NCBI GenBank assembly: GCA_021205095.1
Contig: JAJPYE010000051.1
Coordinates: 1 to 45,302, forward strand
DNA length: 45,302 nt
DNA from: Oscillospiraceae bacterium
GTDB taxonomy: Bacteria > Bacillota > Clostridia > Oscillospirales > Oscillospiraceae
Reading direction: 5' to 3'
Below the pieces are notes generated by a model. That model saw only the letters and a program-made list of their open reading frames with translations. It was not told where the DNA came from and did no database searches. This document shows, piece by piece, positions 3,898-45,302 of the stretch (the first letter of the stretch is position 1; every line of letters begins with the position of its first letter). The position numbers and the translations under genes were made by a program.

Positions 3898-6198
3898 ATG
3901 AAGAAACTCAGCAAGATTTTGGCACTGCTCGTGGCTCTTTGCATGATCCTCTCTGTGGGTGCCTTCGCCAGCGGCGAAGCCTCCGGCGAGGCGTCTGCGG
4001 AAGCCGCCCCTGCGGAGACCGCAGAGGCCAGTGCCATCCCCGAAACGGCCATCACTGTGGATGTGTCCCAGTTGACGGCCTCCGACTACGCCTACCTGAC
4101 CAACTACTCCAACCGTGACGACAGTGGCAACATCTATATTGGCACTGACATCACCGAGGCGGATCAGGCTGTGGTGCTGGATGAGACTGTCACCGGCGCT
4201 GGCTACACTGCGGTGTATGTCCACGGCGAGGACGCCTCCGCCACCATCACCGGCGTGGAGGTCGCCATCGATGACACCGACGGTCTGCTGGCCAGCGACT
4301 TCAGCGGCCAAGGCACTGCCGTTGTGGCTTATGACGGCGCTTTCGTCACCATCGAGGGCCTGACCTACTACTCCGAGGGCTTTGAGCGCACCCTGGGCGT
4401 GGTTTCCCAGAACGCCAACATCGTCATCAAGGACAGCGACATCACCGTTATGGGCGCTGACCCCCTGACTGAGGCTTGGGAAGGCTATCACAGCAGCGCT
4501 GACCAGAACGCCATGATCTCTCCCCCCTGGCCTCTGGGCATCACCGGCGGTGGCCGTGTGGTCAACATGATCGGCGAGAACCCCACCCTGACCATCATTG
4601 ATTCCACCCTGGTGGCCGGCGAGACCTGGGGCATCCTGTCCACCGACGCTGGCTCCAACATGATCATCAATGTTGTGGACACCGAGCTGACCTCTCTGTC
4701 TGAGAGCGAAGGCGGCTCCGATTCCGGCTGGCGTATCTTCGGCTATGACGAGGACGCCTATGGCTCCGCTTACGGCGCTTACTACATCGGCAACCCCACC
4801 CAGTATTACTATGGCGCGACCTTCAACGGCGTGACCTATGCCGCTATCATCACCGGCGCCAACGAGGGCCACTATGCTTCCTCCAACGGCACCATCGACC
4901 TGTATGACGCCAACGGCAATCTCATTGAGACCGTCGAAGGCGAGGGCAACGTGACCACCATCAACGGTGTGTTCGGCTTCATGCAGCACAACAGCCTGGT
5001 CGGTCTTTACATTGAGGACGGCACCGTCATCAATGCGGAGGAGGCCGCTATCCTCTACAAGGCTTCCGACGGCGCTTACTACTTCGACGAGGCCGAGCTG
5101 AACGTCACCTCCGGCATCCTGATTCAGATGATGGACAACGACGACGACTCCCGTATCGGCGGCAGCCCCATGTCCGCTGAGACCGGCTTCGATGAAAACT
5201 ACAGCGACAGCAAGATCACCTCTACCGGCGAGGGCTTCCCCGGCCTGGGCTTTGATTACACCTCCACCACCGGCGGCAACACCGTCACCGCTACCTTCAC
5301 CAACGGCGATTACGTTGGCGACATTCTCAACGGCACCGGCTACTATGGCCAGTCCGGCGACAACCTGACCGTCACCATCGGCGAGGGCGCTACCCTGACC
5401 GGCGACATCGCTCTGACTTCCACCATCAAGGGCGTGGCCTACAGTGAAGAGGCCATCGAGGGCATTGAGTATTATGGTGACGACATCGCCTACCTCCTGG
5501 TAGACGCTGAGGGCAACGTGACCGATGACGCGGCTGAGGCTGCTTTCATCCAGATCACTGACTACACCATCAACGAGTACTTCCTGCAGGGCCATGTTCA
5601 GAACATCGTTTACTATAACGGCGCTTCCACCGCTGCTGTGGTTGTTGAGGCCGACGGCGTCTGGACGGTCGCTGAGGAGTCCCTGATCACCAGCCTGAGC
5701 ATTGCCGAGGGCGCTACCGTTTACGGCGCGCTGACCGAGAACGCGGACGGCACCCTGACCCTGACTCCCTCTGAGGAAGCTATCCCCGCCGGTGAGTACG
5801 GCTCCATCGAGGCTGTTGGCGGCGGCACCAATGTCGGCGGCGGCGTGACTGACGACGGCACTCTGGACGTGGGCGCTGCTGCGGACGCTATGGCCGAGCA
5901 GCAGGGCGCGACCGCTTCCGGCGAGGCCTCTGGCGAAGCTACCGCTGAGACCGCTGACGCTGGCGAAGTCACCTGGGCTGACTATCAGGCTTACCTGATC
6001 GAGGCCGCTGGCGGCAACGCCCCCGACCTGGACGAGTTCACCGAGCAGGTCATGGCCATGGAGTCCTGGGACGACATCGACCAGTCCACCAGCCCCTGGG
6101 ATCAGCTCTTCACCACCGTGGGCATCAGCACCTGGGATGACTTCGTAGCTGCCGGCGGCGCTGGCGCTGCCAGCATCGTCGAGGGCGCGATGGGCTGA
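3898..6198 (+). CDS. large secreted beta-rich surface protein (paralog 2)
   Basis: A 766-aa exported protein starting MKKLSKILALLVALCMIL, with the same signal peptide and SGEASGEAS mature end as its divergent paralog, and extended similarity through the beta-rich middle (for example shared GYGAYYIGNP-like and VTATFTNGDYVGDI segments). After a second SGEASGEA stretch it continues into an extra ~75-residue domain rich in Trp, Asp and Glu (TWADYQAYLIEAAGG, STWDDFVAAGG) that is probably helical and is absent from paralog 1. The ATG at 3898 is chosen because AAGGAGA precedes it; six in-frame upstream codons lack a better site. A strong terminator follows at 6238-6267. Likely a cell-surface or adhesin-like protein; exact role unknown. 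Confidence 0.85.
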   Translation: MKKLSKILALLVALCMILSVGAFASGEASGEASAEAAPAETAEASAIPETAITVDVSQLTASDYAYLTNYSNRDDSGNIYIGTDITEADQAVVLDETVTGAGYTAVYVHGEDASATITGVEVAIDDTDGLLASDFSGQGTAVVAYDGAFVTIEGLTYYSEGFERTLGVVSQNANIVIKDSDITVMGADPLTEAWEGYHSSADQNAMISPPWPLGITGGGRVVNMIGENPTLTIIDSTLVAGETWGILSTDAGSNMIINVVDTELTSLSESEGGSDSGWRIFGYDEDAYGSAYGAYYIGNPTQYYYGATFNGVTYAAIITGANEGHYASSNGTIDLYDANGNLIETVEGEGNVTTINGVFGFMQHNSLVGLYIEDGTVINAEEAAILYKASDGAYYFDEAELNVTSGILIQMMDNDDDSRIGGSPMSAETGFDENYSDSKITSTGEGFPGLGFDYTSTTGGNTVTATFTNGDYVGDILNGTGYYGQSGDNLTVTIGEGATLTGDIALTSTIKGVAYSEEAIEGIEYYGDDIAYLLVDAEGNVTDDAAEAAFIQITDYTINEYFLQGHVQNIVYYNGASTAAVVVEADGVWTVAEESLITSLSIAEGATVYGALTENADGTLTLTPSEEAIPAGEYGSIEAVGGGTNVGGGVTDDGTLDVGAAADAMAEQQGATASGEASGEATAETADAGEVTWADYQAYLIEAAGGNAPDLDEFTEQVMAMESWDDIDQSTSPWDQLFTTVGISTWDDFVAAGGAGAASIVEGAMG

Positions 6199-40628: not shown

Positions 40629-41291
40629 TCAGCCCTCCACGGGCATTTGAATCAGCAGATGCACCAGCGCCGACCCTTCTGTGGAATCCTCCGGGGCTTG
40701 CAGCAGCAGCTTCTCCCCGGCGGGGGGAATGACCAGGCGCTGGATCCGATAACATCTCATGTCGGCGGCGCAGATGTCCGCGCCGTCCAGGAGGAGGGTC
40801 GGCTCTGCCTCGGTTCCCAGGGTGATCGCCCCCTCCCCGTCGAAGGGTTCCGTGATTTCGCACTCCACGGTCAGCACTGCCGCGTTGGGCGGGAGGCGGA
40901 AGCACACGCTCCCCCCGCCGGTCAGGGTGCCGCACAACCGCCAGCGGGCGGAATTGTCCGCCGGGGCGTAGTTCTGGGCGTACCAGGCGGCGAGCTGGTT
41001 TACATAAGAATTAAACTGGGTCAGCTCGTTCTCGTACTGGGTATACTCCCCGTTGGCGTAGTCGATCATGGCCCCCAGCCAGGCGGTGTAGAGGGGCCGC
41101 CATCTGTCCGGCAGAAGGAGGCGCTTGTCTCCGTCATCCGGGAGGGTGTATAGCTCCTCTATTCTCCACTGCAAAAGCACCTGCTCCCACAGGGCGGATT
41201 CCAAGTCCTCGATCCACTCGGTCAGCCGCTCCTGGCTGTAGGCGCTGGGCCGCATTTCCTCCGCCCAGGCGAGAAGGTTGTTCAGTGTCAT
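40629..41291 (-). CDS. phage head-tail connector-like protein
   Basis: 220 aa. The N-terminal ~120 residues are helical (MTLNNLLAWAEEMRPSAYSQ, WRPLYTAWLGAMIDYANGEY) and resemble adaptor/connector proteins that sit beneath the portal; the C-terminal ~100 residues are beta-rich. It overlaps the portal gene by 4 bp (ATGA), strongly suggesting joint translation. The ATG at 41291 follows AAGGAG. Function inferred from position; sequence family not certain. Confidence 0.5.
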   Translation of the reverse strand: MTLNNLLAWAEEMRPSAYSQERLTEWIEDLESALWEQVLLQWRIEELYTLPDDGDKRLLLPDRWRPLYTAWLGAMIDYANGEYTQYENELTQFNSYVNQLAAWYAQNYAPADNSARWRLCGTLTGGGSVCFRLPPNAAVLTVECEITEPFDGEGAITLGTEAEPTLLLDGADICAADMRCYRIQRLVIPPAGEKLLLQAPEDSTEGSALVHLLIQMPVEG

Positions 41292-43105
41292 TGGGTCTGT
41301 ACTCCTTTCATTTCTATGGCCGGGGCCGTCTGCTGGCGGAGAAGGGCCTGCTTGGTCTGGCTGGCGCCGGGATAGTGAAGCTGCTCCATCTTCCGCCAGA
41401 AGAGAAGCCGCGTCTCCGGCAGGGTGGGATCCCCAAAGGCTCCGGCGGTGAAGTATGCCTGGGTCTCCTGCCACATGGCGGTTCTGTCCGCCGCCAGGGC
41501 CTGGGCGCTGTCGCAGGAGAAGAGAAAGCGGTCGTTCCAGCGGTATGCCCCGTCCTCCTCCTGTTCCAGGAAATCCCAGCGGTTCCACTCCTCGTCCACC
41601 GGCTCCCCGTTCTCGTCCCGGCCAATGACGGGCCGCCGCTCGTCGGCATAGGCAAGCTCGAACTTAAACAGGGCCTCGAACAGCCGCGCCCAGCAGGCGT
41701 TTTTCATCACCCGCTTGGATTGGAGCCGCCCGGCAGTCTGGTTCGCGGCAAACTCCTTGGCTACCCCGCTGGTGGCGGTGGCGTCCTTCCGGCCCTGGTA
41801 GGAATCGGTGATGCCCACCAGGTCGCGGGCCTCCTGGTATACATAATCCATATACGCCAGGGGCTGCTCCACGTCGCATTTCAGGTCGTAGACCCCCAGA
41901 TAATTCCGGTCAGCCACGTTTTTCAGCCGGATGGCCTTGGCCACCCCGGTGTCCACTCGGATGGAGGGGTCGGGGGGCAGGGTGATATAGCTGCCGGAGG
42001 CCAGGAGCTGGTCGATGATGCTCTTTTCCAGGCGGTTGATGGTGTTCTGCTGGTCGGCGACTTTATCCACGTCCGACTCCCCCAGGAGCTGGCCGTAGAC
42101 GGAGACGGATTTTTGCAGGAACACGGGGAAGATGTCTGGTTTATAATAAGGTATCAGATTGGGCTGGCCGGTGATGGGGTCGGCCCCTGGGATGACGGAG
42201 CCGTCGGAGCGCCGGACGGGGAGCCACAGCTCCTGGTATTCCTCCAGGACGGTCTCCATCCGGCCCCCGCACATAGGGCAGCGGCAGGCGGGTTCGTCCC
42301 CGTCCTCATCGTCCTCCTCCTGGGGGAGCCTGTCCCCCGGCTGCACCGCCCCGCAGTCCCGGCAGCGGCACAGGATACGGCCCTGGCAGTCCTCCAGATC
42401 CGCCAGGATGGTGTCCTCCACCCAGGAGAACAGGCCGATGCCGCCCTGGTCGTTTTTGTAGTAGGCCGCGTACTGGGTCACAAGCTGGTCGGAGGGGGAT
42501 GCGTCCCCGCCCCGAACATCCGGCTCCTCCTCCCCCGCATCGGGCAGCTCCACGCCGTAGCGGCGGCGGATGAAGCTCTTGGTCTGGGGCAGCTTCAGGA
42601 TGAAATCGTCCATCTCCCAGAGGTCGCCGGTGACGCCGGGCTGGGGGGCGAGCTGCTTGGGGTGTACCACGGACACCACGCTCTGCCCCATGCCGCCGGG
42701 GGCGGGCCGGGCGCTGTCCCATTCCAGGACGAACAGGCCGCCGCCCTGGATGGGTACCGTCCGCTCCATCTGGTCGTTCAAAATCTCCATGGGGAGCTGA
42801 TCCAGCTTGTTGCGGAGCATATCCTCAATGAGGCAGGCCAGATGCTCGTCCTTCCGGCGGAGGGCCGTCACCTTGGGCTGGGGGATGTTGGCGTCCACCT
42901 GGGCCTCGATCAGCTCCGCCGCGATATTCCGCACATGGGGCGTGGAACGCACCACGTCCCCGTCCACAAGCTGGTCGATCCGGCTCCGGCCCCGGTAGAT
43001 CTCCTCCCGCCTGTCCATCTTCTCCACCTCCGGGGCGAAGGCGTTCTCGTAGCTGGTCAGCTTGTCCTGCCAGTATTCCAGTTTTTGTCGTTGGTTGGTT
43101 GTCAT
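41288..43105 (-). CDS. phage portal protein with internal zinc ribbon
   Basis: 605 aa. The sequence resembles large portal proteins of short-tailed phages: RRSRIDQLVDGDVVRSTPHV-like start region and the long helix-rich C-terminal half (ESDVDKVADQQNTINRLEKS, AYMDYVYQEARDLVGI). The portal ring is the door through which DNA is packed. Unusual: residues ~246-280 contain a cysteine cluster, C246, C248, C251 and C274, C276, C279, with CRDCG and CPMCGG knuckles, a zinc ribbon inserted in the wing region. It overlaps the connector-like gene by 4 bp. Confidence 0.8.
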   Translation of the reverse strand: MTTNQRQKLEYWQDKLTSYENAFAPEVEKMDRREEIYRGRSRIDQLVDGDVVRSTPHVRNIAAELIEAQVDANIPQPKVTALRRKDEHLACLIEDMLRNKLDQLPMEILNDQMERTVPIQGGGLFVLEWDSARPAPGGMGQSVVSVVHPKQLAPQPGVTGDLWEMDDFILKLPQTKSFIRRRYGVELPDAGEEEPDVRGGDASPSDQLVTQYAAYYKNDQGGIGLFSWVEDTILADLEDCQGRILCRCRDCGAVQPGDRLPQEEDDEDGDEPACRCPMCGGRMETVLEEYQELWLPVRRSDGSVIPGADPITGQPNLIPYYKPDIFPVFLQKSVSVYGQLLGESDVDKVADQQNTINRLEKSIIDQLLASGSYITLPPDPSIRVDTGVAKAIRLKNVADRNYLGVYDLKCDVEQPLAYMDYVYQEARDLVGITDSYQGRKDATATSGVAKEFAANQTAGRLQSKRVMKNACWARLFEALFKFELAYADERRPVIGRDENGEPVDEEWNRWDFLEQEEDGAYRWNDRFLFSCDSAQALAADRTAMWQETQAYFTAGAFGDPTLPETRLLFWRKMEQLHYPGASQTKQALLRQQTAPAIEMKGVQTQ

Positions 43106-43138: not shown

Positions 43139-43485
43139 ACGGCGCGTTGGTTTGGGTCTGGCGCGGGTCGGCCCCCTCCGGCATCGCCTTTGGCGCTGCC
43201 ACCTCCCCCGCATTGCGGGGGAGGGAACCCCTCCACCGCCCTGTTCGGGCGGTCCCCCTCCCCTTTCAGGGGAGGCTCTGGTGCCAGCATTTCATAAAAT
43301 TTCACTTTTTCGTTTCGGGGATAACTAATTTAGACGATTGTTTGTATTGCAGTTCGTTGCAAACAACCAGCGTACGACACTGGAAGCCTCCCCTGAAAGG
43401 GGAGGGGAACCATGCGATAGCATGGTGGAGGGGTTCTCCCCCGTACCAGCACTAAATAAGAGCCTCCCCTCCGCGCTGGCTGATT
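43139..43485. repeat. composite inverted-repeat element 4
   Basis: Left half 43139-43280, right half from 43383 (GCCTCCCCTGAAAGGGGAGG). The outer left end (GCGCGTTGGTTTGGGTCTGG) matches the left end of the element at 36119. It fills the gap between portal start and capsid stop. Confidence 0.85.
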
Positions 43486-43491
43486 CCCCCG

Positions 43492-44493
43492 TTACAGGGT
43501 CGCGCCTCCATTGAGACCGCCGCCCAGTACGAAGCGCCAGTCTACAAACCCGGCGGACAGTCTGGCATACCCATCCCAAATGTTCTCGTCATTGGCCCCC
43601 AGGCGGCTGGTGATCTCGCAGTCCACCCGGTCGAGCCACACCGCGCCGTCGCACTGGTCGTTATAGGAGCTGTCCATCAGGAACCAGGGGGCGGCGTTGG
43701 TATCGCCGATGTAGTCGTTGAGGTAGGGCCAGACCAGCACACGCATGGAGCCGAAGAGGTAGTTGAAGTCGTTGTTGGCGGTGCCGGGGGCCTCGTAGGA
43801 ACCCAGAACGGCGAACACGTCCCGCTTCAGCGTGGCGATATTGGGGATGATGATGGTGTCCGGCTCCAGGCCCAGGGTCTCCCCGTTGTCGCCCTTATAG
43901 TTCTGCATGGCGGTCATGGCCGCGCCCAGGGCCTCCTCGGAAAAGGCGTCGGCGAACATATTCCCCTGCTCCGCCCCGGAGACCTTGGCCGGGTGGGCGG
44001 TGCTGAAAAGGCACAGGCCGTCGGCGCTGGCGCAGTCGAAGTCGAAGCCGTTGATGGTAACGCTGGTGCTGCCCTGGCTGGCCGTACCCAGCAGGTTCGC
44101 GAAGAACCGCTCGCGGGTGCGGTAGAAGGAGTCGGTGAGCTTGGTGGCTCGCTTGGTCATCTCGCCGATCTTGTTGTCGTCCCGCATTTCGCGGGAGATG
44201 GCGATCTGGCTCTTCCAGACCTGGTTCACGATGGTCTTGGGGTAGCCCTCCTCAAAGCCGTTGGTGGGATGGGCCCCGTTCTCCCCCACCACCTGCCAGT
44301 CGCTGGCGGCGGTGACGCTGGTGAACGCCTCGGCCCAGTTCTCGCTCTTGACCTGGCGGAAGATTTTCGGCCCGATCTCCTTCACCTTCCAGGCCTCCGC
44401 CACGTCCTCGATGCAGCTCGCGATCGGGGCCTGATACTTGCCATACAGCGTATCCAGCCGCCCGGAGCCTTCCGCAATTACAATGTTTGCCAT
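43492..44493 (-). CDS. phage major capsid protein
   Basis: 333 aa. The sequence has features of Mu-gpT/HK97-like capsid proteins: NWAEAFTSVTAASDWQVVGE, WKSQIAISREMRDDNKIGEM and a C-terminal region with FNYLFGSMRVLVWPYLND and WDGYARLSAGFVDWRFV. It lacks an obvious long N-terminal scaffold domain. It follows the head-protein gene at 44554 by 60 bp and would form the shell. Confidence 0.75.
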   Translation of the reverse strand: MANIVIAEGSGRLDTLYGKYQAPIASCIEDVAEAWKVKEIGPKIFRQVKSENWAEAFTSVTAASDWQVVGENGAHPTNGFEEGYPKTIVNQVWKSQIAISREMRDDNKIGEMTKRATKLTDSFYRTRERFFANLLGTASQGSTSVTINGFDFDCASADGLCLFSTAHPAKVSGAEQGNMFADAFSEEALGAAMTAMQNYKGDNGETLGLEPDTIIIPNIATLKRDVFAVLGSYEAPGTANNDFNYLFGSMRVLVWPYLNDYIGDTNAAPWFLMDSSYNDQCDGAVWLDRVDCEITSRLGANDENIWDGYARLSAGFVDWRFVLGGGLNGGATL

Positions 44494-44553: not shown

Positions 44554-44943
44554 TTACTCGCCGATGAAGCGGCAGCGGCACAGGTCTCCGGCCTGCTCGC
44601 CGTCGAAGCCGACGATCTCCAGCATCTCGCCGAGGCCGGGCGTGATGGTCATGCAGTCGTCGGCAATGCCTGCGTGGACGCCGATCTGGAGTCCGGCGCT
44701 GTCGGCGTTCAGGGGGATCTCGTACACCACCCCCTCCGTCAGGCGCATGACCGGGATGACCGTCCCCGCCGCCGGGGCCTCCTCCTCCCGCAGGGAGATG
44801 AAGGTCGGCTCCGTGGACGGCCCAAGCTGACCGTCGGTGACAGCCATGCCCAGGCCCACATACAGATCCTCGCCCCCCGCCACCGGGTAATACTCCCAGG
44901 GGATGGGCTGTCCGTTGTCAAAAGAATAAGGCAGAATCGCCAT
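44554..44943 (-). CDS. phage head-associated protein
   Basis: 129 aa, starting MAILPYSFDNGQPIPWEYYP, beta-rich with Gly/Pro/Glu; the position directly upstream of the capsid gene is that of head decoration proteins. No known motif seen. The 250-bp decamer array lies immediately upstream, so the array would be its promoter or leader region. Confidence 0.55.
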   Translation of the reverse strand: MAILPYSFDNGQPIPWEYYPVAGGEDLYVGLGMAVTDGQLGPSTEPTFISLREEEAPAAGTVIPVMRLTEGVVYEIPLNADSAGLQIGVHAGIADDCMTITPGLGEMLEIVGFDGEQAGDLCRCRFIGE

Positions 44944-44970
44944 GGTTATGTTCCTCCTTTAAAATGGTTG

Positions 44971-45220
44971 AATTTTGTCGTTGTGTGTCGATGGGTGTCG
45001 AACGTTGTCGAAGTGTGTCGAGTGTTGTCAATGGGTGTCGAATGGGGTCGCACACTGTCGAGTGTTGTCGAAGAATGTCGAATGATGTCGCACACTGTCG
45101 AGTGTTGTCGAAGAATGTCGAATGATGTCGCACACTGTCGAGTGTTGTCGATGGGTGTCGAAGCGTGTCGATTAGGGTCGCACGTTGTCGAGTGGTGTCG
45201 AAGAGTGGCGAACGTTGTCG
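44971..45220. repeat. phased 10-bp repeat array (GTCG every 10 bp)
   Basis: From 44971 to 45220, 25 consecutive decamers: 23 end in GTCG (others GTCA and GGCG), exactly in phase with the 10-bp spacing. The other six bases vary but come from a small set (AGTGTT, AAGAAT, AATGAT, CACACT, ATGGGT). A 40-bp unit of four decamers repeats almost perfectly from about 45050 to 45150. It is not a CRISPR array: the repeat is far too short and there are no spacers. Lies ~30 bp upstream of the head gene. Confidence 0.95.
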
Positions 45221-45241
45221 ATGAGATGCGTCTGTTGTAGT

Positions 45242-45302
45242 GCCGGTACGGGGGAACCCCTCCGTCAGCGCCAAGGCGCTGCCACCTCCCCGCCATGCGG
45301 GG
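45242..45302. repeat. composite inverted-repeat element 5, cut by the window edge
   Basis: The sequence TGCCGGTACGGGGGAACCCC and a following CACCTCCCCGCCATGCGGGG match the ends of the other composite elements (compare the ends near 40590-40600 and 43430-43446). It continues outside the window. Confidence 0.65.

Follow-up and report, generated by a model that had tools for sequence, protein, structure and literature searches.

Tandem Spo0A-box-like decamers before the head genes of a predicted Oscillospiraceae prophage

An array of 25 decamers in the register TGTCGAANNN lies near the end of the window (the whole stretch of 45,302 nucleotides analyzed here, contig C56 of a genome of 2.34 Mb that is 97% complete; Table 1). 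On balance, we lean toward reading it as tandem Spo0A (0A) boxes within a prophage late operon, in a host that carries sporulation genes, and the sequence evidence suggests, as the best reading, an array that couples head-gene expression, or host sporulation, to the state of the phage. The units keep strict 10-bp phase with zero indels, and GTCG occupies unit positions 2 to 5 (G 25/25, T 24/25, C 25/25, G 24/25), its two substitutions falling in the units at 45026 and 45206. The first-pass annotation had described GTCG in fixed phase through 25 decamers with two substitutions and no indel, all of which was confirmed; its interval 44971-45220 is the same array, offset by half a unit from 44976-45225. 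The pattern TGTCG-N5-TGTCG-N5-TGTCG matched 13 times in the window, always within the array, and 0 times in 100 shuffles, and in-phase GTCG per 250-bp span reached 23 in the array and at most 3 elsewhere in the window on both strands. Tandem Repeats Finder returned periods of 10, 20, and 40 at the array; the 40-bp higher-order unit, likewise noted in the first pass and recovered here, is a sign of recent tandem growth. The contig ends 77 bp beyond the array.

Table 1. Features of the array and its surroundings (window coordinates)
Feature	Position	Strand	Basis
Decamer array TGTCGAANNN, 0A-box-like, single orientation	44976..45225	+	sequence, shuffles, phase scan
40-bp higher-order tandem unit, 4.4 copies, 87% matches	44986..45162	+	Tandem Repeats Finder
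Leader between array and next gene, Shine-Dalgarno-like AAAGGAGG	44944..44975	-	sequence
129-aa gene, phrog_24113, "decoration-like" from place and size only	44554..44943	-	profile
Major capsid protein gene, phrog_371, PF25209 Phage_capsid_4	43492..44493	-	profile
Portal protein gene, phrog_156	41288..43105	-	profile
REP-like repeat to contig end, boundary approximate	45240..45302		read from sequence

Host genes, including those for S4, SecY, S3, L3, and SecA, occupy 7.9-30.7 kb of the window, and phage lysis and structural genes were recognized from 34.7 kb to the contig end. The array was said earlier to stand upstream of phage head genes, and it does: the phrog_24113 gene comes first and the major capsid gene next, both on the minus strand. 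A second array piece was found at the end of contig C47; it counts nine or ten boxes, whose phase shifts once by 1 bp. On this contig the terminase large subunit gene (terL) is followed by a phrog_35275 gene (labeled “scaffold-like” from its place), then directly by the array piece and then by a REP-like element. C47 and C56 both terminate at a repeat of this kind, and the C47-C56 join that we infer would most likely arrange the region as terL, scaffold-like gene, array piece, repeat element, window array, decoration-like gene, and capsid gene. In a related phage, L013, a single contig shows the same order (scaffold-like gene, boxes, element, array, decoration-like gene, capsid gene), with the REP-like element again inside the array. 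Together with the C47 piece and the repeat element, the array probably fills the gap between the scaffold-like and head genes. A near-copy of the REP-like core (2 mismatches) also lies at window 43176-43208, between the capsid and portal genes, and an exact core at C47:5852; the genome holds just these two matches to the core pattern.

In its natural register the unit reads TGTCGAA-NNN, a 7-base box plus a 3-base spacer. TGTCGAA is the reported core of the Spo0A (0A) box, in which G2, C4, and G5 are contacted by Spo0A (PMC3485338). These contacted bases are present in the window array at G2 25/25, C4 25/25, and G5 24/25, with all three in 24/25 boxes; perfect TGTCGAA 7-mers make up only 9/25, which was counted against the Spo0A reading. 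Tandem 0A boxes are usually spaced at 10 bp, and the array combines the 0A core and its contacted bases with the tandem spacing of such operators. Among distinct window decamers, departures from consensus numbered 4/90 at positions 1-5 versus 27/54 at spacer positions 8-10 (Fisher P = 1.7 × 10−10, a guide only, since repeat copies are non-independent), and the same comparison gave 10/155 versus 60/93 in G004, a genome of the same genus, and 18/170 versus 62/102 in stretch L013b. Across three genomes, the decamers selected from six stretches kept G2 in 151/151 cases (window, 25/25; C47, 7/12; G004, 36/38; three L013 stretches, 41/46, 28/38, and 14/24), a set biased toward conservation because box-less end units were omitted. 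The C47 exclusions were two non-boxes and three boxes 1 bp out of phase, the last of them within the gene end; two of the three L013 stretches have a duplicated part in common, and the four boxes of the relative L012 stand outside the set. The whole genome contains six TGNCGAA-N3-TGNCGAA pairs (reversed control, 0). Five belong to the array pieces of C47 and C56, and the other one coincides with the start of the coding sequence of a gene read as ParB-like. Paired perfect boxes as dimer sites (a pattern of two good boxes and one poor in L013) were also considered and set aside, with permutation P values of 0.08 to 0.33 in five stretches.

The first-pass annotation had also suggested that the array is non-coding, which fits the stops in 3/3 sense frames of the G004 and L013 arrays and in 2/3 of the window array. 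A translated or structured-RNA element is scarcely plausible: one sense and several antisense frames are open across the window array, and its RNA folded better than shuffles (z = −3.2), which was counted against the Spo0A reading, but stops interrupt every sense frame in G004 and L013, z was 0.9 and 0.3 in those arrays, and a 10-bp unit shifts the reading frame from copy to copy. Structured RNA was rejected as a candidate, the window array alone standing out. A consensus scan yielded no clear promoter at the array, which was counted against the Spo0A reading; the sigma-70-like matches there were weak (four, against 0.2 expected), and three of them lie on the head-gene strand with TCGACA of a box as their first hexamer. 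Given conservation confined to the 7-base box with a freer 3-base spacer, together with the sense-frame stops, the best fit is a non-coding array bound cooperatively by protein on one helix face. This part of the earlier interpretation is favored, and the packaging or partition role offered alongside it is disfavored. The match to the Spo0A box, which the first pass had not noted, would sharpen the protein-binding idea into a more specific and more testable reading.

The host genome contains a single Spo0A_C match, a 265-aa gene on contig C18 (E = 7.9 × 10−47). An alignment of 118 residues links the DNA-binding domain of this protein to chain 1LQ1, a DNA complex, and the recognition helix SRVERAIRHAIEVAW is identical. 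SpoIVA was also found in the host genome. Spo0A_C was detected in 7/7 hosts checked (the G004 match spans positions 1-86 of 104), with the array present or absent, and this was counted against the Spo0A reading. A link between array length and sporulation was examined and given no weight: long arrays accompany SpoIVA (G000, G004, G677), and hosts with four units or none lacked a match (G676, G678), but the G676 and G678 genomes are only 64% and 82% complete. In G679, SpoIVA is present and the capsid contig begins inside the capsid gene. The sites might instead be operators of a different transcription factor, from host or phage, that recognizes direct repeats at 10 bp. Several response regulators that bind in tandem are suited to repeats of about one helical turn, and C47 carries an HTH regulator gene. 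This appears improbable, as 0A boxes fit both sequence and geometry without adjustment, and as the boxes run head-to-tail, unlike the palindromes that HTH_3 repressors usually bind.

Judged by the identity of the box, its phase, the retention of the contacted bases, the matching host Spo0A, and the place before the head genes, the array is probably bound by Spo0A. Host Spo0A~P would then sit head-to-tail, one DNA-binding domain per decamer, along one helix face. In the single-copy prophage of a starved host, Spo0A~P could coat tens of boxes before the capsid genes, and the coated stretch would block RNA polymerase from entering them, deferring the lytic cycle by the logic of phi29. On replicated phage DNA, present in many copies, the boxes could instead titrate Spo0A~P and hold off sporulation. 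Assuming that Spo0A binds, roadblock and titration seem about equally likely, and the data do not separate them. A tentative possibility is that the array acts as a DNA sponge, with the replicating, induced prophage soaking up Spo0A~P and barring host sporulation during virion production; array length would be tuned through tandem growth, and the phage would possess an anti-dormancy device consisting of binding sites alone. Should Spo0A bind, prophages of Oscillospiraceae would have phi29-style sporulation sensing on a far larger scale, and phage control of host dormancy by binding-site dosage rather than by a protein would become testable. DNA binding by Spo0A is reported to be weak (PMC4168254), and Spo0A~P binding per box is reported to be best fitted with four molecules, dimers being cited there from earlier work (PMC12090719).

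Array length at this spot ranges from none to about 41 units among closely related phages. In G004, about 35 boxes run from the scaffold-like stop codon and the contig ends before the head genes. In L013 (capsid 93% identical), about 41 decamers precede the decoration-like gene and two further stretches lie upstream, part of them duplicated and with a run of N between, and L012 (capsid 97% identical) has four units left. L014 and L016-L020 (capsid 90-93% identical) showed no array close to the capsid gene; in L014 and L016, which were read directly, there is only a short gap with a ribosome site. L021-L023 are contigs without sequence before the capsid gene and are uninformative on the array. 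More widely, capsid relatives were found in 44/400 genomes of the family (46 matches). Among 39 capsid loci scanned (30 of the 46-match set plus 9 earlier ones, a few on the same contig and some cut by contig ends), the array occurred in L121 (the window), L012, and L013 only, and this absence from most scanned relatives was counted against the Spo0A reading. The gap was ≤54 bp in 28/31 loci (computable at 33/39, with two array carriers omitted in which an ORF inside the array was taken, and with some automatic ORFs rough). A strict three-box pattern found arrays in 2/35 genus genomes and misses L013. Searching collections of phages and plasmids with the array by BLAST gave zero matches. At the same intergenic spot in L012 (840-916), three AACCTG-N4-AGGTT palindromes lie 31 bp apart, perhaps another operator array replacing the nearly lost decamers. 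In G004, GGAGGAAACAAATC stands near the start of both contigs flanking the array (L029:1-77, L011:1-66), and the pair resembles the target duplication that an insertion element would leave on entering between the array and the decoration-like gene.

Two further alternatives were weighed. The array could be a functionless, neutral minisatellite with an incidental 0A match, having expanded through slippage or recombination out of a site with CGACA that follows the scaffold-like gene. A possible CGACA seed is present in L016, where the scaffold-like gene ends in AAACGACAGTAA, and the higher-order units (of 40 bp in the window array and roughly 30 bp in that of L013), the range of lengths among close phages, and the repeat element within the L013 array and at the C47 and C56 ends are all consistent with such growth. 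A neutral array would, however, be expected to vary evenly over its ten positions, whereas in the window, G004, and L013 the core five are kept and the spacer three vary, and we regard this explanation as rather unlikely. Distinctly unlikely is an array for a phage protein, chiefly in packaging (small terminase or pac-type) or head assembly, with ring subunits each taking one box per turn. The probable position between the terL and scaffold-like genes and the capsid gene would suit it, as would short 10-11-bp arrays in gaps of some other viral contigs, near genes taken without profiles to be for lysis or terminase. Against it, the box already matches a known host regulator, and the close relatives L014 and L016-L020, with no array near the capsid gene, argue that phages of this type do not generally package from such a site, which is why the packaging or partition role is disfavored. 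No ParA-, ParR-, or ParB-type gene was found among the profiled neighbors (a subset of ORFs).

Box runs were also sought beyond the capsid relatives. Dominance of 10-bp triplets was expected in viral contigs but was not observed: triple TGTCGAA occurred in 18 contigs at 9 bp, 20 at 10 bp, and 24 at 11 bp (reversed word, 7), or in 14, 16, and 12 groups, respectively, by shared flanks (reversed word, 4). The 10-bp spacing is thus unspecific in viral contigs, which was counted against the Spo0A reading. By a crude measure, triplets fell in stretches that run for 150 codons or more without a stop in 12/18 contigs at 9 bp, 3/20 at 10 bp, and 3/24 at 11 bp. Ten viral contigs forming a group (L080, L082, L086, L088-L090, L093, L094, L100, L102) carry an 11-bp array of GTGTCGAAAGG-like units, and arrays of other sequence at 10-11 bp indicate that such arrays are not always Spo0A boxes. 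Three-box runs were found in 6/348 phylum genomes (reversed control, 0), namely the window's own, four from one genus, and one other. Three of the five non-window runs were read, and all precede genes: two of the four from the one genus stand before an apparent zinc-ribbon gene, and the remaining run precedes genes resembling polysaccharide synthesis (from translations).

Among open-access titles and abstracts, none of the matches listed described a phage 0A-box array or titration of Spo0A by phage DNA. Related strategies have been reported. CtrA sites in phages of Alphaproteobacteria let a host development regulator time the lytic cycle, termed “lytic deferment” (PMC9437464); binding sites of a host development regulator would likewise be kept by the phage here, but those phages involve another regulator and promoter sites and are not known to carry a long tandem array. 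Operators of the abrB type resemble the array in the TGTCGAA core, the Spo0A contact positions, and the grouping of several boxes (PMC3485338), but they belong to host promoters, whereas tens of in-phase boxes lie in a phage here. Gut phages reported to carry truncated spo0A genes (PMC10294663) are alike in possible interference with Spo0A-controlled sporulation (PMC10294663), but they encode a protein (PMC10294663), whereas the present case involves DNA sites only, the lone Spo0A_C match being on C18.

The closest comparison is with phi29 and Nf, in which 0A-like boxes occur in phage DNA and host Spo0A is the reader, as proposed here. Promoter-associated Spo0A sites that suspend the lytic cycle are reported for phi29 (PMC9437464), and suspension of phi29 and Nf by Spo0A is attributed to Meijer 2005 and Castilla-Llorente 2009 (as cited in PMC9437464). 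Unlike phi29, with few boxes at promoters, the present case has 25 (plus about ten on C47), no evident promoter, and a prophage; the phi29 boxes lie in the divergent gap between early and late promoters, and the window array immediately precedes the head genes and probably follows the scaffold-like gene. In the phi29 record, TGTCGAA at 4992 and TGTTGAA at 5002 stand 10 bp apart over the annotated promoter A2c, with further TGTCGAA at 5024 and 5131 in the same gap (boxes read from the record, which may differ from the published Spo0A sites). The second box, TGTTGAA, is imperfect and lacks C4, which was counted against the Spo0A reading. Whole phi29 was not enriched in near-boxes (59 versus a mean of 55 in 20 shuffles), the promoter gap alone being notable. 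Five of the 20 viral contigs with 10-bp triplets (L037, L038, L045, L047, L049), one group by shared flanks, are read as phi29-like. They carry five 0A-like boxes, successively 10, 10, 10, and 11 bp apart and with TGTAGAA as the fourth, in a divergent gap between scaffold and early genes that matches that of phi29. Profiles placed phrog_10439 (scaffolding) and phrog_6243 (SSB) on opposite sides of the boxes in 5/5 of these contigs, and detected the major head phrog_2006 in 2/2 tested and the dsDNA-binding phrog_6370 in 1/1 tested.
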